A stretch of DNA of 64,000 bases from Rubrobacter tropicus (GTDB taxonomy: Bacteria; Actinomycetota; Rubrobacteria; Rubrobacterales; Rubrobacteraceae), in contig NZ_CP045119.1 of assembly GCF_011492945.1 (NCBI RefSeq), forward strand, positions 1,736,001 to 1,800,000, in the 5' to 3' direction. Made by a program: the position numbers and the translations under genes. Position 1 is the stretch's first letter, and each line of letters begins with the position of its first letter. The notes below the pieces were generated by a model that worked only from the letters and a program-made list of their open reading frames with translations, had not been told where the DNA came from and did not search any database. Shown in pieces: positions 3,847 to 30,574 of this stretch.

Positions 3847-4695
3847 TTGGGCAAGAGGTCGGACCGGAGAATATTCAGGAAGCGGCGTCAGCGGGCGGGT
3901 TTCGTGCTGCTGGTGTCGGTCGCCATCGTGGTTGTCGGCGCGATCATGTTCTCCTCCCTGAGCCCTTTTAGCCCTGACCTCGTGGCTTCGGGCGGCGAAG
4001 AGGCTTCGCCCGTCAACAGGGTCGAATCGCCCGAGGTGGACCGGGCGCCGGAGGCCGTGGCCGAGAACGCGGGAGCGTCTCGGGAGACGGTGGACGAGCC
4101 CGCCGTCGAGGAGAAGGCCGCCGAGGAAGAGAAGGCGCAGGCGGAGTCCTCCGGGAACGGTGGGGAGAACGCCGGCGACAAAGAGCAGGCTCAGAAAGAG
4201 CCGGAGCAGCAGGCCTCCGGGCCGCCCCCGATACCGAAGCCCGCCACGAACGACTTATGGATGGACATCCCGGCGCTCGGCCTCGACGACAACTACGTAG
4301 CCAACACCGATTCCCACGCCGCGATGGACGCCGGGGCCATAAAGCTTCCCTCCTCGGGGTTCCCGTGGCAGGAGAACGCCAACACTTACATCGCCGCGCA
4401 CAGGCTGGGGTGGCCCGGAACGGCGAGCGACTACCAGTTCTACGACCTGGTCAACATGCAGCTCGGGGACAAGATCTACCTCTACGACGCCAACGGGACC
4501 GTTTACACCTATGAGGTGTCGGGCTTCGCCGAGGTCCTGCCTTCCGAGACGTGGGTCACTTCGCCGCAGGCCGGTCGGGACATGATCTCGCTCCAGACCT
4601 GCATCGAGGACTACGGCGACTACTGGACGATGGGCCCGAACTGGTACGTCCGCTACGTGGTTCAGGCCGACCGAGTCTCCGTAGACCGGGCCTAG
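3847..4695 (+). CDS. class E sortase
   Basis: 282 aa, TTG start with GGAGAGGA four bases upstream. A basic N-terminus ([14 protein letters not shown]) precedes one membrane helix (about residues 18-40). A ~90-residue Glu/Ala-rich linker leads to the sortase domain from about residue 135. The catalytic triad is visible: His in YIAAHRLG, Cys in ISLQTC and Arg in WYVRYVV. Class E sortases attach proteins carrying LAxTG-like signals to peptidoglycan in high-GC actinobacteria. No substrate gene is adjacent. A second sortase lies at 25220-25879. Confidence 0.92.
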
Positions 4696-22530: not shown

Positions 22531-23883
22531 CTAACCCCGGATCATGCCGAGCAGGGCGTCGCGCTGCTTCTCCAGGGTTTCGCGGTCCGAGGCCTCTACG
22601 TTCAGGCGGAGCAGGGGTTCGGTGTTGGAGGGGCGGAGGTTGAACCACCAGTCGCCGAGGTCGACGGTCAGGCCGTCGAGGTGGTCTGTTTTGGCGTTTT
22701 CGTTTTCGGCGAAGTGGTCTTCGACCTTCTCGAGGGTCGCATCCTGGTCGTCTACTTCGGAGTTGATCTCCCCGAGCGGAAGTAGGGTCTATGGGGAGAT
22801 GAGGTCCGAGATGGGCCCTTCCTGACGGCCCACGAGCTCGGCCACCGTCAGCATGGCGATGATGCCCGAGTCGGCGAAAAAGTTGTTTCGGAAGTAGAAG
22901 TGGGCTGAGTGCTCGCCCCCGAAGGCGGCGTCCCGCTCTCGCATCTGGGGCTTGATTATCGAGTGTCCGGCCTTTGTCCTGACGGGTCTGCCGCCCTCGC
23001 GCTTGACGAGTTCGGGGAAGGCCTTGGAGCAGACGGCGCTGTGGATGATGGTCGCGCCAGGCTCCTTCTCGAGCACGTTCTTGGCGATGAGGGCGGCCAG
23101 GATGTCGCCGTCGATGGTCTCGCCCTTCTCGTTCACTATGAAGCAGCGGTCGGCGTCCCCGTCGAAGGCCACGCCGAAGTCCGCGTTCTCGGAGCGGACC
23201 CGCTTCTGGAGTTCCTTGACGTTCTCGGGCTCGATGGGGTTCGGGGGGTGGTTCGGGAACGAGCCGTCGAGCTCGAAGTACATGGGGACGTACTCGAAGG
23301 GGAGCCTCTCGAAGAGGGGCGGGAGCATCTTGCCCGCCATGCCGTTTCCGGCGTCGACCACGATCTTGAGCGGCCTCAAGCCTTCCGTCTCTATGAAGTT
23401 CAGGCAGTGTTTCGCGTAGTCTTCGGCGATGTCCGTCCGCTCGACGGAGCCGGGATACTCGGCGGGTTCGGGGAGCTTGCCCGAAGTTATGAGGTCCCTG
23501 ATCTGGCCGATGCCCGACTCGCCGGAGAGGGCTATGGCCTGCTCCCTACAGAGCTTGAAGCCGTTGTAGTTCTTGGGGTTGTGGGAGGCCGTGATCATGG
23601 CCCCGCCGGGCTCCTCCAGGTGCCCCACGGCGAAGTACAGCGCGTCCGTCGAGACCATCCCGAGGTCCAGCACGTCGGCCCCCGACTCGGTCACCCCGCC
23701 GATGAACGCCTCCTGGAGGTCTTCACCCGAAAGCCGCATGTCCCTCGCGACGACGACCCTCGAACCCGAGAGGCCGAGGTGGGCGACGAAGGCCCGGCCT
23801 ATGTCCCTGGCTACGTCTTCGTCGAGCTGCTCGGGGTACGTCCCCCTGATGTCGTAGGCCTTGAATATCGACTCGTCGATCAT
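22531..23883 (-). pseudogene. phosphomannomutase/phosphoglucomutase with a disrupted frame near residue 365
   Basis: Reads as a full-length ~450-aa alpha-D-phosphohexomutase: FKAYDIRGTYP, the phosphoserine loop ITASHNPKNYNG, the metal site DGDADRC, the sugar loop FGGEHSAHFYFRN and the C-terminal phosphate loop WWFNLRPSNTEPLLRLN. An in-frame TAG near 22789 and a short out-of-frame patch interrupt LISP...GEINSEVDD. Adding one C, one C and one G to nearby runs restores a normal sequence with the frame kept. It probably provides mannose- or glucose-1-phosphate for envelope glycans. Real start ATG at 23883 with GTAGGAG upstream. Confidence 0.82.
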
Positions 23884-23963
23884 CTCCTACCCCTGGGCTC
23901 CTCTTGGTCTCGAAACGGCCGGACGATTTTGGCTTCCGGTACAATACCGTCTTATGGTCCCTC

Positions 23964-24551
23964 GTGCAGCACGCCTCTTTCAGCCCGGCCGGTAGCCGCG
24001 CCGTGGGACCCCGCTTCGTCTCCTTCGCGGCCGTCTTTTACGGCCTGCTCACCGTCGCCGGGGCCGTCTGGTGCGGCCTGCGAGGCATCGAGCTGCCCGT
24101 CTTCGGTCCGAACCCCGCGACGGGCCTGGCGTTCGGCGCGGCGACCGCCGCCGGGACCGTCTCGCTCTCGCTGCTGGCCTACCGTCTGGTCCCGATCACC
24201 CGCAAGCTGGCCGACGAACTGGCCCCGAGCCTCGTGGACCGGGCCGACCGCACCGGCCTGGTGCTCGTCGCGCTCTTCTCCGGTATCGGGGAGGAAGTCT
24301 TCTTCAGGGGCGCGGTGCAGCAGGAGTTCGGCCTCCTCATAGCCTCGCTCGCGTTCGGGCTCGCGCACGTCGGCCCCGACCGGCGGTACCTGCTCTGGAC
24401 CGCCTGGGCCGTCCTCGCGGGCGTGGTCTTCGGCCTCCTTTTCGGGGCGACCGGCGGCCTGCTCGCGCCCGTCGCGGCCCACGTCCTACACAACGCCGCG
24501 ACGCTCCTGATCTGGAAGCGCTCCAGACCAAACCTCCCGACCGGCACGTGA
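23964..24551 (+). CDS. CPBP family intramembrane protease
   Basis: About 195 aa from GTG at 23964; TTG at 23904 is in frame, but TACAAT (23940-23945) looks like a -10 between the two. Several membrane helices carry the CPBP motifs: GEEVFFRG, FGLAHVG and HVLHNAATL. Type II CAAX-like proteases act in bacteriocin immunity or regulated proteolysis; the target is unknown. Stop overlaps the next gene by GTGA. First gene of the envelope operon. Confidence 0.85.
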   Translation: MQHASFSPAGSRAVGPRFVSFAAVFYGLLTVAGAVWCGLRGIELPVFGPNPATGLAFGAATAAGTVSLSLLAYRLVPITRKLADELAPSLVDRADRTGLVLVALFSGIGEEVFFRGAVQQEFGLLIASLAFGLAHVGPDRRYLLWTAWAVLAGVVFGLLFGATGGLLAPVAAHVLHNAATLLIWKRSRPNLPTGT

Positions 24552-25102
24552 GCCGGCTCCCGAACACCACTACCGCGAAACCCCGCAAGAGGGCGCCCCG
24601 ACAGACTATGTTCCTTTTATTGGCGGCACTGCTCGCGACCGGTCTTTTCATCGTCACGTCCACCACCGGTGAGGATTTTGCCCCGGGAGAGGAGATCCTG
24701 TCGCCCGGCGTGGCGGATATCGCCGCCGGAACGGGTGAGGCGCCGTTTCCGCGCACGGATGTGTCGCGCTTCGACGGCAGCACCGAGGTGGTGCGGGTGT
24801 ACCTGCGGGTGGAAGAACTGCCGCCGGGGCGACGGATGACGGCCACGGTGGAGCGCTATGGGCGGTCGTCCGCGCTATCCCGGTTCTTCGGGGGTGGGAT
24901 CAGGGCCGAAGGCGGCGGTGAGGACCGGCTCTCGGTCTCCCAGAGCGGGGTCTCCGGGGTCGTCTCGTTCGCCGTGCGGGCCGAGGACGCGCTGCCGGCG
25001 GGCGAGTACGCGGTGGAGGTGCGCTCCGTTCGGGCGGAGTCGGGCGAAGAAACTCTAGTTCTGGCTCGGAAATACTTCGTGGTGGGGGACCGGCAGGCCT
25101 AG
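24548..25102 (+). CDS. single-pass exported protein of unknown function
   Basis: 184 aa, GTG start overlapping the CPBP stop. A basic stretch (AKPRKRAPRQ) precedes one membrane helix (about residues 19-38), then an outer domain rich in beta strands with conserved-looking VYLRVEELPPGRRM and ALPAGEYAVEVRS, like an Ig/FN3-type fold. No lipobox and no LPxTG-like end. It sits just before a sortase and could be its helper rather than its substrate. Confidence 0.75.
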   Translation: MSRLPNTTTAKPRKRAPRQTMFLLLAALLATGLFIVTSTTGEDFAPGEEILSPGVADIAAGTGEAPFPRTDVSRFDGSTEVVRVYLRVEELPPGRRMTATVERYGRSSALSRFFGGGIRAEGGGEDRLSVSQSGVSGVVSFAVRAEDALPAGEYAVEVRSVRAESGEETLVLARKYFVVGDRQA

Positions 25103-25121
25103 TAGTCCTTCGCTTTTCCGA

Positions 25122-25127
25122 TACAAT
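25122..25127 (+). promoter_or_regulatory. candidate -10 box (TACAAT) before sortase E
   Basis: TACAAT lies 20 bases after the exported-protein stop and about 60 bases before the sortase start region. No convincing -35. Confidence 0.3.
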
Positions 25128-25219
25128 GGGTTGCGTTCTGAGAGCGGCCGGCGGACGGGAGTTCGGGGCCGTAGAGGGAGGGAAACATAAGGCGCGGCAC
25201 GGACACCATTTTCAACGTC

Positions 25220-25879
25220 ATGAGCCTGCTGCTGGTCGGGGTCGGTCTCGCCGTGGCCCTGACCTTCTTCGCGGGCTCTCCGGCCCGCGACGCCGACGCC
25301 GCGAGCAAGGTCGAGACCCTGGACCGGACGTCTTCCGGCCCCGAGGCCCCGGTCGTATCCCCCGAGGTCGAGAAGTCTCTTGAGAAGTCTCCTGACCGCG
25401 CCAAAGCCGGTAGGGCCGGCGGGAAGCGACGGGTAGAGGTCCCCGGCGGCCCGCAGAACAGGACGCTCAAGGTTAGCATCCCGAAGATGAGCCGGATCAG
25501 CGGGGCGACGGTCCCGTACGCCGACGGGGGCAACGAGGCCGCCTTCAAGCGGTACGCCGGGGTCCACCTGAAGGGAACGGGTAGCCCGTGGGAGAGGGAG
25601 GCAAACGTATACATCGCCGGGCACAGGCTCGGATATCCCGGCACGGACAGCTTTTTGGCCTTCTGGGACCTCAACAAGCTGGAGGATGGGGATAGGATCT
25701 TCCTCACGGACGCCGCCGGCAAGCGCTACGTCTACAGAGTCTTCAGAGAATTCGTGGTGGAGCCCACCCAGGTCTCCGTGACGCGGCCCCTCCAAGGGCG
25801 TAACATCGTGACCTTGCAGACCTGCACGCTGCCGGATTACTCGCGGCGCCTGATCGTGCAGGCCGAGAAGGTCGCCTAG
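25220..25879 (+). CDS. class E sortase (second copy)
   Basis: 219 aa from ATG 25220. A ribosome site (GGGAGGG, 25176-25182) sits instead before an ATA codon at 25187 in the same frame; starting there would add RRGTDTIFN, the basic stretch expected before the membrane helix. The sortase core shows VYIAGHRLGYPG (His), NIVTLQTCTLPDY (Cys) and SRRLIVQA (Arg). It lies in an operon with penicillin-binding protein 2 and Lgt, unlike the first sortase at 3847, and its linker is shorter (about 90 residues). Confidence 0.9.
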   Translation: MSLLLVGVGLAVALTFFAGSPARDADAASKVETLDRTSSGPEAPVVSPEVEKSLEKSPDRAKAGRAGGKRRVEVPGGPQNRTLKVSIPKMSRISGATVPYADGGNEAAFKRYAGVHLKGTGSPWEREANVYIAGHRLGYPGTDSFLAFWDLNKLEDGDRIFLTDAAGKRYVYRVFREFVVEPTQVSVTRPLQGRNIVTLQTCTLPDYSRRLIVQAEKVA

Positions 25880-25915
25880 CAGTTGAAACCGGATACAGCG
25901 AGAGGGAGATAGAGG

Positions 25916-28114
25916 TTGCTCCGGTCGCCAGCGCGCAAAAACAGGGAGACGAACCCTGCGAAAAAACGGGTCGAGACCCCGCCCCTGACCAAGGGCAACA
26001 TGCAGGTGCGGGTGGTCTCGCTCGCCGTTCTCATAGCCCTCGTCTTCGCCGTGCTCGGCGCCCGTCTCTGGTACCTGCAGGTCCTGACGGGCGAGGAGTA
26101 CAACGTCATGGCCCAGAACACGGGCACCCTTACCGTCAAAGACCCCGCCCAGCGCGGCGTCATCTACGACCGCGACGGCGAGATCCTGGCCAACAACGAG
26201 CCGGGCCTGAACGTCACCGTCATACCCAACGAAATCGGGCGCGGTAGGACCGCCGCCGAGGCCCGCGAGAAGGTCGGCGAGCTGGCCGAGATCCTCGGCG
26301 CCGACCCCAAGAGCGTCCAGGAGCGCTACGACGCGGCCATCGACCCCGTGACGGGCGCCGCCTACAGCCCGATTCTCGTGAAGGAGAACGCCGACCAGAC
26401 GGCCGTTACCTACATCAGCGAGCGCACGGAGGAGTTCGACGGCGTCCAGGTCAACGACGACTGGGTGAGGAACTACCCCCAGGGAAACCTGGCCTCCCAC
26501 GTCCTCGGCTACACGGGCGCCATCACCCCCGATGAGCTAAAGCTGGACGCCTTCAAGGGCCTCTCCAACGATTCCATCGTCGGCAAGAGCGGCGTCGAGG
26601 TCTACTACGAGGAGACGCTGCGGGGCGAGGCGGGCTGGCAGAAGTACGACGTGGACGTGCTCGGGCGGATAGTCCCGGACGGGGCCAGGGTCAACTCCGC
26701 GAGCGAGTTCGTGGACGAGAACGGGAACCCGATAGAGTCGAACCCGACGGAGGAATTGCCCGACCACGTCAAGGACCCCAAGCCGGGCGACAACCTCAGG
26801 CTGACGGTCGACGTGGATTTGCAGAAGGTGGTCGAGACGGAACTCGACGCCGCCCTCGACCGGACGAGGGCCGAGGGTTACGAGGGCAGGGGCGGGGCGG
26901 TTATCGCCATGAACCCCGAGAACGGGGAGGTGCTGGCGCTCGCGAGCCGGCCCGACTTCGACCCGCAGCTCTTCGTCGGGGGTATCTCCGGGGACCAGGA
27001 GCTAGAGGAGTACGAGTACCTGTCGTCAGAGAGGAGCGGGTACCCGTTCACCAACCGCGCCATCGTCGGCGGGCAGCCGGGCGCCTCGACCTTCAAGATC
27101 TTCACGGGCCTCGCCGGGATGGCGGCGGGCGTGATCGACGCCTACACCATCATTACAGACAGCGCTATCATCGACGAGAACCTGTGCTGGAGTCCATCCA
27201 GCGTCTCGGTCAGCCCGTGCTACAGCAGTTGGCGGCAGAACAGCCCCAACTACGAGTACCTCGGGAACCACGGCCCCCAGAACTTCTCCGAAGCCATAGC
27301 GGATTCCAACGACATATTCTTCTACCAGGTGGCCGACTGGATCTGGAACCAGACCGAAGACAAGGACTGGATGCCCAAATACTACGAGCGGTGGGGCTTT
27401 GGGAAGCTCACCGGCATCGACATCAGCGGCGAGTCCGCCGGGCGCGTGCCCACGGAGGCGGGCGAGAGAGAGCTTTACAGGGCGCTGCACGGCAGCGCGG
27501 AGGAGGCCTACTGGAGCGTGGGGGACTGGATCAACCTCTCCATCGGCCAGGGGGACCTGCTCGTCTCCCCGGTCCAGATGGCCACGGCCTACTCGGCCCT
27601 CTACAACGGGGGCACGCTGGTAACCCCGCACGTCGCCAAGGACGTGAGGGACCAGAGCGGGAAGGTCGTGGCGGAGATCACGCCCGAGCCAGCGGGCCAG
27701 GTCGACACTAACCAGGCCCAGATCGACGCCGTGATAAATGGTTTCAGGGGCGTCACAGCGAAGAAAGGAACAGCGGAGAACATCTTCAAGGGCTCCGAGC
27801 TTCCGACCATCGGCAAGAGCGGCACGGGCGAGTTGCCCAGCGAACCCGGCGAGGCGGCGGACTACGTGAACTGGTTCGCGGGCTGGACGGAGGGCCAGGA
27901 CGAGCCGCTGGTCGTGGTCACCATGATCGAGGGTGGCGGCGCCTTCGAGACGGGCTCGGAGCTGACGGCCGGACCCGTCGTGCGCCACGTCCTCGAGGCC
28001 TACTACGGCGTCGAGCAGTCGCCCGAGGACCCGCAGCCGACTGGGACTCGGCCGATAGACCCGGCCGACCGGCAGTCGACGGAGGCGCCGACCGTCACCA
28101 CAGCAACGGAGTAA
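25916..28114 (+). CDS. mrdA: penicillin-binding protein 2 (elongation transpeptidase)
   Basis: 732 aa, TTG start with GGGAG upstream. A short basic tail and one membrane helix (about residues 33-55) lead to the pedestal domain with QRGVIYDRDGEILANN, then the transpeptidase domain: serine motif GASTFKIF, the second motif SND in IADSNDIFFYQ and the third KSGTGE. It cross-links peptidoglycan during side-wall growth. A short Pro/Thr-rich tail follows. No mreB/rodA in the window; its neighbours are sortase E and Lgt. Confidence 0.93.
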   Translation: MLRSPARKNRETNPAKKRVETPPLTKGNMQVRVVSLAVLIALVFAVLGARLWYLQVLTGEEYNVMAQNTGTLTVKDPAQRGVIYDRDGEILANNEPGLNVTVIPNEIGRGRTAAEAREKVGELAEILGADPKSVQERYDAAIDPVTGAAYSPILVKENADQTAVTYISERTEEFDGVQVNDDWVRNYPQGNLASHVLGYTGAITPDELKLDAFKGLSNDSIVGKSGVEVYYEETLRGEAGWQKYDVDVLGRIVPDGARVNSASEFVDENGNPIESNPTEELPDHVKDPKPGDNLRLTVDVDLQKVVETELDAALDRTRAEGYEGRGGAVIAMNPENGEVLALASRPDFDPQLFVGGISGDQELEEYEYLSSERSGYPFTNRAIVGGQPGASTFKIFTGLAGMAAGVIDAYTIITDSAIIDENLCWSPSSVSVSPCYSSWRQNSPNYEYLGNHGPQNFSEAIADSNDIFFYQVADWIWNQTEDKDWMPKYYERWGFGKLTGIDISGESAGRVPTEAGERELYRALHGSAEEAYWSVGDWINLSIGQGDLLVSPVQMATAYSALYNGGTLVTPHVAKDVRDQSGKVVAEITPEPAGQVDTNQAQIDAVINGFRGVTAKKGTAENIFKGSELPTIGKSGTGELPSEPGEAADYVNWFAGWTEGQDEPLVVVTMIEGGGAFETGSELTAGPVVRHVLEAYYGVEQSPEDPQPTGTRPIDPADRQSTEAPTVTTATE

Positions 28115-28115
28115 C

Positions 28116-28946
28116 GTGCCACTCCTCCTTGCCTCACTGCCGAGCCCGCCGTCCCCGATCATGTTCGAGGCGGGGCCCTTCGCGCTTCGCTACTACGGCC
28201 TCTGCATAGCCCTCGGCATCGTCGTCGCCACCTGGCTCTCGGGCCGGGAGCTCGTCCGCAAGGGCTACGAGGGCGAACTCGCCCTCGACTCCCTGTTCTT
28301 CATAATCCCGCCCGGTTTCATAGGCGCCAGGGCCTACCACGTCATCACGGACTACGACCTCTACGCCGGCGACCCCTGGCCCGGCGTCATCGCCGTGTGG
28401 AACGGGGGGCTGGGCATCTACGGGGGCGTGATCGGGGGCTTCATAGGCCTACTCGTCTTTTGCCGGATCAGGGGCATCAGCCCGCTGGCCTTCGCGGACG
28501 CCGTGGCCCCGGGCCTCGTGCTCGCCCAGGCCATAGGACGGTGGGGCAACTACTTCAACCAGGAACTCTTCGGCAGACCGTCGAGCCTTCCGTGGGCCAT
28601 AAGGATCTCCCCGGAGAACAGGCCGGACGGGTTCGCCGACGCTTCCACCTTCCATCCGACGTTCCTCTACGAGAGCATCTGGAACGCGCTCGTGTGCCTG
28701 GTCTTGCTCTGGGTCGCCCGCCGATTCGCCGGATGGCTCAAGGACGGGGACGTGTTCCTGCTGTACGTCAGCCTGTATTCGACGGGGCGCTTCTTTATGG
28801 AGCTCTTGAGGATCGACCCGGCGTTCCTGATCGGGGGCGCCATCCGCGGCAACCTGCTCGTCGCCACCGTGCTCGCCCTCGGCTTCGCGATGGTCCTGAT
28901 GCTCCGCCATTCCAGGCCGTCGCGCAAGCGTTCCGGGCCGTCCTGA
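28116..28946 (+). CDS. lgt: prolipoprotein diacylglyceryl transferase
   Basis: 276 aa, GTG start right after the PBP2 stop. It transfers diacylglycerol to the lipobox Cys of prolipoproteins. Seven membrane helices; the family signature GRWGNYFNQELFG, the catalytic-region RYYGLCIALGI with its conserved Tyr and GGLGIYGG are present. The lipoproteins of the iron systems at 52-59 kb would be substrates. Coupled to PBP2 by a 1-base gap. Confidence 0.95.
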   Translation: MPLLLASLPSPPSPIMFEAGPFALRYYGLCIALGIVVATWLSGRELVRKGYEGELALDSLFFIIPPGFIGARAYHVITDYDLYAGDPWPGVIAVWNGGLGIYGGVIGGFIGLLVFCRIRGISPLAFADAVAPGLVLAQAIGRWGNYFNQELFGRPSSLPWAIRISPENRPDGFADASTFHPTFLYESIWNALVCLVLLWVARRFAGWLKDGDVFLLYVSLYSTGRFFMELLRIDPAFLIGGAIRGNLLVATVLALGFAMVLMLRHSRPSRKRSGPS

Positions 28947-28993: not shown

Positions 28994-29713
28994 GTGAGCG
29001 CGGTCTTGCTCGCCCTGCTCGCCGCTGTCGGCTTCTCCGGGGCGAGCCTGCTCGCCCTCTTCGGCAAGGGCCTTGGCGCGCGGGGCCGCTCCCTGGCGGC
29101 CGCCTTCGCGGCGGGCATCTTGCTCGCCCTCACGTTCGTCGAACTCTTTCCCGAAGCGCTAGAACTCGCCGGTAGGACGGCGACGGTCGGTTTCGTCGCC
29201 GGCTTCGCCGTGCTCTTCCTGGTAGAAAACGTCTTCAGGGCCCACACCGACCACGGCCCGGAGGAGCCGGTCCACGAGCACGCGGTCGGCCCCTTCGTCG
29301 CCGGCCTCGCCGTCCACAACCTGGCCGACGGCTTCGCCATCGGCATCGGCGCCGAGGCGCCGGAGGTCACGTCCTGGCTCGTCGGCCTCGGCATCCTCGT
29401 TCATCAGGTTCCCGTCGGGGTCTCCCTGGCCGCCGTGCTCGTGGCCGCGCGGGCGACGAGGGCCCGGGTCATGCGGTCCGCCATCGCGCTGGGGCTGGCG
29501 ATCCCCTTCGCCGCCTTCCTCGTCCTGGCCCTCCCGGCGCCGGGCGAGAGTACCCTCGGCCTGCTCACCGGCGCCGCGGGCGGCGTTCTGGCCTACGTCG
29601 GCGCCGCCCACCTCCTGCCTGAAGCCAGGGCGGAACACCGGGGCAGGGGGACGGGCATCCTGTTCCTCGCGACGCTGCTCGCCACCACCTTCGCGCTGTT
29701 GACGTTGTTTTAG
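28994..29713 (+). CDS. ZIP family metal transporter
   Basis: 239 aa, about eight membrane helices with a His-rich loop (HTDHGPEEPVHEHAVG) between helices 3 and 4. The binuclear metal site is seen in VHNLADGFAIG (HNxxDG) and the following VHQVPVGVSLAA. Family members import zinc or other divalent cations. Follows lgt by 47 bases. It ends just before an inverted pair of heptad arrays. Confidence 0.88.
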   Translation: MSAVLLALLAAVGFSGASLLALFGKGLGARGRSLAAAFAAGILLALTFVELFPEALELAGRTATVGFVAGFAVLFLVENVFRAHTDHGPEEPVHEHAVGPFVAGLAVHNLADGFAIGIGAEAPEVTSWLVGLGILVHQVPVGVSLAAVLVAARATRARVMRSAIALGLAIPFAAFLVLALPAPGESTLGLLTGAAGGVLAYVGAAHLLPEARAEHRGRGTGILFLATLLATTFALLTLF

Positions 29714-29872: not shown

Positions 29873-30574
29873 CTAAACAAACACATACCAGGCAACGAGA
29901 AGCAAGATCTCCAACCCGAGAACCACGGCGATTGGCGTGATGGCTTTCGCCGTTTTGCGGCTGTAGACCGTCGGGGCGACGAGGAAGCCGAAGAGGAGGC
30001 CCCCGGCGAGGCCGCCCATGTGGGCCGTGTTGCTGATGTTCGGTATCGAGAGGCCTATGTAGAGGTTTATCGCGAGGAGTATGAGGAGTTGGCGGATGAT
30101 GGGGTTTCGCCAGGAGAAGGTGCCCCTGCGTATCGAGTAGCCGAGTATGCCGCCGAGAAGGCCGAAGATGGCCCCGGATGCGCCCACGGCGGGCTCGGCG
30201 AAACCCCCGAAGTACAGGTAGGCGATGCCGCCGGACAGGCCGCTCAGGAGGTAGAGCGCCAGGAAGCGGCCCCGCCCGAACGAGGCCTCGACGAACGAGC
30301 CGAGAAAGTACAGCGAGAGCATGTTCAGGGCGAGGTGCACGAACCCGGAGTGGAGGAAGACGCTCGAGACGAGGCGCCACGCCTGGCCGTCGGCCACGAG
30401 GGCCGGGACGAGGGCGCCCTGCTCCAGTATGTCGCCCGGCTGGACGACGAGGGCGACGTTCCAGGGGATCGCGTAGGCTGACGCGCCGAGGTACGCGACG
30501 CCCAGGTAGACGAGCGTGCAGGCGGTTATGAGGCCGTAGGTTACGGGAAGGCCGGGATTCCTCTGCCCGATCAG
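29873..30574 (-). CDS. rhomboid family intramembrane serine protease
   Basis: Six membrane helices with the rhomboid core: LHSGFVHLALNMLSLYFLG, the catalytic Ser in VGASGAIFGLLGG and the catalytic His in NTAHMGGLAGGLLFG. It cleaves membrane proteins within or next to a helix. The first helix (VTYGLITACTLVYLGVAYL) lies upstream of the first GTG in frame (30397), so the true start must be upstream; the only candidate is a CTG at 30574 overlapping the previous stop as CTGA. That gives 233 aa. Confidence 0.85.
   Translation of the reverse strand: MIGQRNPGLPVTYGLITACTLVYLGVAYLGASAYAIPWNVALVVQPGDILEQGALVPALVADGQAWRLVSSVFLHSGFVHLALNMLSLYFLGSFVEASFGRGRFLALYLLSGLSGGIAYLYFGGFAEPAVGASGAIFGLLGGILGYSIRRGTFSWRNPIIRQLLILLAINLYIGLSIPNISNTAHMGGLAGGLLFGFLVAPTVYSRKTAKAITPIAVVLGLEILLLVAWYVFV

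Follow-up and report, generated by a model that had tools for sequence, protein, structure and literature searches.

In Rubrobacterales, PBP2 is encoded between a sortase and the prolipoprotein diacylglyceryl transferase Lgt. The resulting sortase-PBP2-Lgt cluster is genuine, is conserved and represents a derived state. PBP2, a core partner of MreBCD and RodA, is encoded alongside them in almost all the other actinobacterial families that were sampled. The order-wide move of PBP2 to a sortase and Lgt is a lead on whether the covalent anchoring of proteins to lipid II is coupled to side-wall synthesis. The preferred reading, to which we assign a probability of roughly one half, is that the three genes form a transcription unit specific to the Rubrobacterales that would couple protein anchoring to side-wall growth, with a separate unit upstream that encodes a CPBP protease and an Ig-like protein.

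The five-gene locus

The locus lies in the window, by which is meant the whole 64-kb stretch of DNA that was analysed, part of a two-contig genome of 4.58 Mb. The initial annotation had listed five genes in the order CPBP protease, exported beta-rich protein, sortase E, PBP2 and Lgt. The list of open reading frames and the Pfam and NCBIfam profile matches confirm that all five positions are occupied and co-directional. The features are as follows.

22789..23883, minus strand: phosphomannomutase/phosphoglucomutase, a divergent neighbour outside the unit that is retained in many relatives
23934..23945, plus strand: promoter-like element TTCCGGTACAAT before the CPBP gene (pattern match and alignment)
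23964..24551, plus strand: CPBP/Rce1-like intramembrane protease (PF02517, 54.7 bits, cut-off 22.4)
24548..25102, plus strand: 184-aa protein with an N-terminal MxxLPxT, a basic stretch, one TM helix and an Ig-like beta-sandwich
25112..25127, plus strand: promoter-like block GCTTTTCCGATACAAT before the sortase gene (counterparts in 24 of the 30 genomes readable here, as qualified below)
25187..25879, plus strand: sortase (SRT) with a probable ATA start after GGGAGGGAA (PF04203, 85.7 bits; catalytic H, C and R present)
25916..28114, plus strand: PBP2, an MrdA-type class B PBP (PF00905, PF03717; TIGR03423, 465.8 bits, cut-off 455)
28116..28946, plus strand: Lgt (PF01790, 229.4 bits; TIGR00544, 180.6 bits, cut-off 118.9)
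28994..29713, plus strand: ZIP metal transporter, a flanking gene whose position varies among relatives
29873..30397, minus strand: rhomboid protease, a flanking gene (PF01694, 124.7 bits)

The last 4 bp of the CPBP gene are shared with the start of the 184-aa gene. A gap of about 84 bp leads to the probable sortase start; the sortase gene ends 36 bp before PBP2, and PBP2 is separated from Lgt by 1 bp. The start of the CPBP gene is uncertain. There is an in-frame GTG at 23964, which agrees with the start given previously, and the longest reading frame is open from 23904, with the stop at 24551. Against the myxosortase-type Mrt models of NCBIfam the CPBP protease scores 22.7-24.1 bits, below their cut-offs of 75-130. 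Rfam and tRNA searches across the window returned no matches.

Conservation of gene order

The order-wide search covered 39 Rubrobacterales genomes from 13 genera. PBP2 was matched in 37 of them, with no match at E 1e-60 in G003 and G008, both of which are incomplete. The position of the sortase could be decided at 36 of the 37 chromosomal loci, the window counted, with G033 left out because its locus starts at a contig end. At 33 of these 36 loci a sortase lies directly upstream of PBP2, separated from it by 2-112 bp. Lgt follows PBP2 in 36 of the 36 loci that are long enough, G018 being too short to count. The order is retained in 12 of the 13 genera while the flanking genes change. It had been proposed that gene order be checked in relatives, the outcome that would count against the linkage being an order conserved in none of them. 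What is found instead is conservation across the order.

All three loci without an adjacent sortase belong to genus g11 and account for every one of its genomes. Eight sortases from each of two g11 genomes were compared, and three of each eight fall in one group with the G001 positional sortase (99/96). It therefore looks as if the sortase relocated and gained copies instead of being lost. The g11 locus, with related sortases encoded elsewhere in the genome, also indicates that co-location is not essential. The 184-aa protein, matched in 30 of the 39 genomes, follows a different pattern. Genera g7, g8 and g13 retain sortase-PBP2 and lack the 184-aa protein, whereas g11 retains the 184-aa protein without the adjacent sortase.

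A second sortase-PBP2 pair (L063/L106), with no Lgt adjoining, is found on a plasmid of Rubrobacter marinus. The frame of the plasmid PBP2 is interrupted by one TGA stop codon.

PBP2 outside the mre operon

The linkage of a sortase to PBP2 and Lgt had been described as unusual, and comparison with other Actinomycetota bears this out. Literature listings contained no paper that describes it. The comparison drew on a 149-genome sample of the phylum, from which each family outside the order contributed one or two of the 39 PBP2 loci used. In none of these 39 loci is a sortase or Lgt near PBP2, and the sortase HMM used on them was positive in 20 of 20 control sortase loci. mreB is present in 35 of the loci, rodA in 35 and both in 33, several of those without the pair being short or ending at a contig edge.

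In the window's genome the operon reads mreB-mreC-mreD-rodA, and PBP2 is absent from between mreCD and rodA. The distance from MreB to RodA on one contig is 1.5-1.8 kb in 29 Rubrobacterales genomes (RodA is on the opposite strand in G017 and G023), which leaves space for mreC and mreD only and is too short for PBP2. Since the Rubrobacterales have mreBCD-rodA without PBP2, whereas PBP2 outside the order mostly lies with mreB and rodA, PBP2 has moved out of the mre operon to a place beside the sortase and Lgt. Compared with the mreBCD-mrdA(PBP2)-mrdB(RodA) operon, the PBP2 family is the same and MreB, MreC, MreD and RodA are encoded in the same genome, but PBP2 here adjoins a sortase and Lgt instead. 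A contig scan with the PBP2 alignment matched Rubrobacterales and distant phyla but no other Actinomycetota, and yielded no sister groups.

A PF06723 match of some kind is present in all 39 Rubrobacterales genomes, and about 32 have a strong full-length MreB. The remaining matches, fragments or weak, are probably HSP70 or FtsA. A statement in PMC4255298 describes the mre cluster as absent from Rubrobacterideae, and the strong MreB matches disagree with it. The rodA gene of the mre operon in the window's genome is split between two frames (L208:2808-4008; G000:C1 about 2.2298-2.2310 Mb), for which a frame-shift, a sequencing error or a decayed gene are candidates.

The sortase

The protein encoded upstream of PBP2 belongs to the sortase superfamily (PF04203, 85.7 bits against a cut-off of 26.6; TIGR01076, 42.3 bits against 39.35), and its catalytic residues H135, C202 and R210 are invariant in 22 aligned rows. 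Its class is another matter. The initial annotation had called it sortase E, yet it scores 47.8 bits on the class E model NF033747, far below the curated cut-off of 160. Eight sortases encoded by other members of the phylum were scored on the same model: five pass, at 161-266 bits, and three reach 117-143 bits. On these sequence scores the class E label should be dropped. The best-scoring class model is that of class C (51.9 bits), also below its cut-off of 160, and there is no pilin-like gene in the five-gene neighbourhood as a further difference from class C sortases. No class model passed for nine other sortases of the window's genome.

A likeness to class E sortases such as SrtE1 of S. coelicolor may extend beyond the sortase family and the His/Cys/Arg residues. 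PMC5148588, where it treats class E, gives a Tyr in the beta3/beta4 loop as a trait of these enzymes. Four positions past the catalytic His, 13 of the 15 positional rows have a Tyr and the other two a Phe; this may be the equivalent of the beta3/beta4-loop residue. Apart from the low model score, a difference from SrtE1 is that the seven sorting signals found in this genome, with a model biased to LPxTG, are LPxTG and not LAxTG.

In a tree of sortases, 55 Rubrobacterales sequences separate from 21 outside the order (100/99; root drawn at the midpoint). The trees place the positional sortases in a cluster that is not one clade, with some paralogues among them and many forks unresolved.

The sortase is likely to start at the ATA at 25187-25189, which sits a few bases after GGGAGGGAA. 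No standard in-frame start lies upstream of it in the window, and the other candidate, an ATG, would fall within the membrane helix. ATA occupies this position in all nine genus-g1 genomes; in most other genera the codon there is ATG, GTG or TTG.

Promoter-like blocks and transcription units

Is the locus one operon, as had been proposed? The gap before the sortase contains GCTTTTC[CG]GATACAATGGGTTGCG, with a single variable base across six aligned genomes while the surroundings vary. Of the 30 genomes that could be read here, 24 have a related element ahead of the sortase gene and six lack it, a count that accepts several hand-chosen -10 variants and uses a consensus drawn from the same sequences. 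The pattern TTCSGRTACAAT, with at most one mismatch, has only two matches in the window against 0.20 expected, and these precede the CPBP and sortase genes. Each of the four aligned rows long enough to cover it, the window's among them, has the TTCCGGTACAAT element before the CPBP gene; a fifth row ends earlier. A generic sigma-70 scan flagged neither block, and the one before the sortase was found through alignment.

With a promoter-like block conserved ahead of the sortase gene, it is unlikely that all five genes form one operon. Judging by these elements, the CPBP and 184-aa genes and the sortase, PBP2 and Lgt genes are probably two transcription units, with read-through possible. The single-operon view should be dropped.

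The 184-aa membrane protein

The second gene had been annotated as an exported beta-rich protein. The beta-rich part holds: the structural model (pLDDT 82.4, pTM 0.71) has a beta-sandwich. It also has a single helix at residues 18-38, so that a one-helix membrane protein is predicted, and the protein is absent in some genera. Fold searches return Ig-like sandwiches with Z up to 8.3. This is a common arrangement that says nothing of function. The protein has no Pfam or NCBIfam match at 0.001, a profile search of solved structures gave chance matches only, and outside Rubrobacterales the 149-genome sample contains just two marginal, partial matches.

The basic residues before the helix suggest that the N-terminus is cytosolic and the sandwich outside. 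At this N-terminus lies the MxxLPxT motif, and residues 4-7 are [LIF]PxT in nearly all orthologues (24557-24568 in the window). Thr is present in 29 of 29 rows and Pro in 28 of 29, counted in an alignment made without the motif pattern, although the position itself was chosen with that pattern; L070, a near-duplicate of L072, was left out. The motif columns are conserved like the fold core while their codons vary. Among 475 early-helix start choices in stretches of the same genome, only five, the 184-aa gene included, give such an N-terminal motif.

At the level of sequence, the likeness of this LPxT to a sortase motif is striking. However, it should lie on the cytosolic side while the sortase active site lies outside, and the real substrates of the genome carry a C-terminal LP[DE]TG. 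Perhaps the CPBP protease and the Ig-like protein, as a separate upstream unit, are membrane accessories of surface-protein processing, but this is a guess. A bolder idea is that the 184-aa protein is a dedicated sortase partner whose LPxT, placed ahead of a basic stretch and a membrane helix, is a sorting signal with its parts in reverse order, used for targeting or regulation and not for anchoring. The protein would then belong to an anchoring-elongation complex that also contains the CPBP protease, the sortase and PBP2. This would be distinctly improbable.

Coupling or plain inheritance

How might coupling work? The unit would co-express what may be the housekeeping sortase with PBP2 as elongasome transpeptidase and Lgt as lipoprotein transferase. 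The sortase would cleave LP[DE]TG-type substrates at Thr-Gly and transfer them onto lipid II, which PMC5148588, in its treatment of S. aureus, names as the acceptor for sortase A. RodA would polymerise the modified lipid II and PBP2 would cross-link it, and protein anchoring would thereby stay in step with side-wall growth. Going by gene order, such functional coupling is plausible. In its favour are the conserved order, the derived position of PBP2, the promoter-like block, the pair duplicated on the plasmid, and the class B PBP and RodA-family genes found within 19 kb at six of 20 sortase loci elsewhere in the phylum. Against it count the g11 locus, the positional sortases not being one clade and the six genomes without the block. 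The cluster offers a small testable unit, three genes with a single conserved promoter-like block, and a natural contrast in genus g11, whose sortase has left the locus.

An order kept within one taxonomic order can also be plain inheritance. What if PBP2 moved once, in an ancestor, to a place between sortase and lgt, and the rest is descent and shared promoter use with no coupling? All conserved cases do fall within one order, g11 shows that the sortase is able to leave, and neighbours such as ZIP and the exported 184-aa protein vary. Such a neutral history has more difficulty with the persistence of the order in 12 of 13 genera despite changing flanks, and with the plasmid, to which the sortase-PBP2 pair alone was carried. 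It is a serious possibility, if the less probable one. Of all the readings coupling appeals most, its odds being about even when the others are taken together, and plain inheritance ranks first among those others.

The remaining explanations fare worse. A single operon of all five genes, in which the sortase is of class E and has the 184-aa protein as its accessory factor, would fit the 4-bp overlap and the five co-directional genes with short gaps. It is improbable given the promoter-like block before the sortase, the failed class E cut-off, and the 184-aa protein that is missing in g7, g8 and g13 and stays behind in g11. In actinomycetes, class E sortases occur near pknB-pbpA-rodA, and the locus might be a rearranged remnant of such a cluster. 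Within the phylum, a class B PBP and RodA do occur in the same 19-kb stretch at those 6 of 20 sortase loci outside the order, and at the one checked most closely a PASTA kinase and a PbpA-type PBP accompany two sortases of class E. Both arrangements place a sortase close to a class B PBP. In the Streptomyces-type cluster, however, the PBP is PbpA and the sortase, of curated class E, lies some kilobases away in the opposite orientation, facing the PBP genes. The PBP2 model, whose cut-off of 455 the window PBP2 passes, gives 249 and 284 for the two such PBPs tested, and the one tested with Pfam has PBP_dimer_2 where the window PBP2 has PBP_dimer. The Rubrobacterales sortases also form their own group apart from the 21 outside, and the RodA-family gene of the window's genome at 28.7 kb has no sortase nearby. 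This origin is disfavoured and highly improbable.

Sortase numbers and sorting signals

The genome that contains the window has 23 sortase matches, the most among the 39 Rubrobacterales genomes (range 3-23). It is also the most in the 149-genome phylum sample, where counts beyond Rubrobacterales go no higher than 10-11. With 23 sortases in one genome, we infer from synteny only that the positional sortase is the housekeeping sortase of the lineage. A second sortase lies in the window at 3847-4695.

A search for LAxTG-type substrates had been proposed. Sorting signals were found in seven open reading frames, as LPETGG, LPDTGG or LPDTG, and none is LAxTG; the PF00746 model is biased to LPxTG, and the free scan covered about 243 kb. 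Two further PF00746 matches, in L259 and L261, score above the cut-off but lack a sorting motif and were dropped. By the criteria used, LPxTG proteins, two in number, adjoin sortases in only one scanned neighbourhood, L088:4802-9076, where they alternate with two near-identical sortases. One of them has DUF11-type repeats and a weak match to a fimbrial isopeptide domain, and the locus is perhaps pilus-like. A further LPETGG protein is encoded on contig 2, about 5 kb from sortases.
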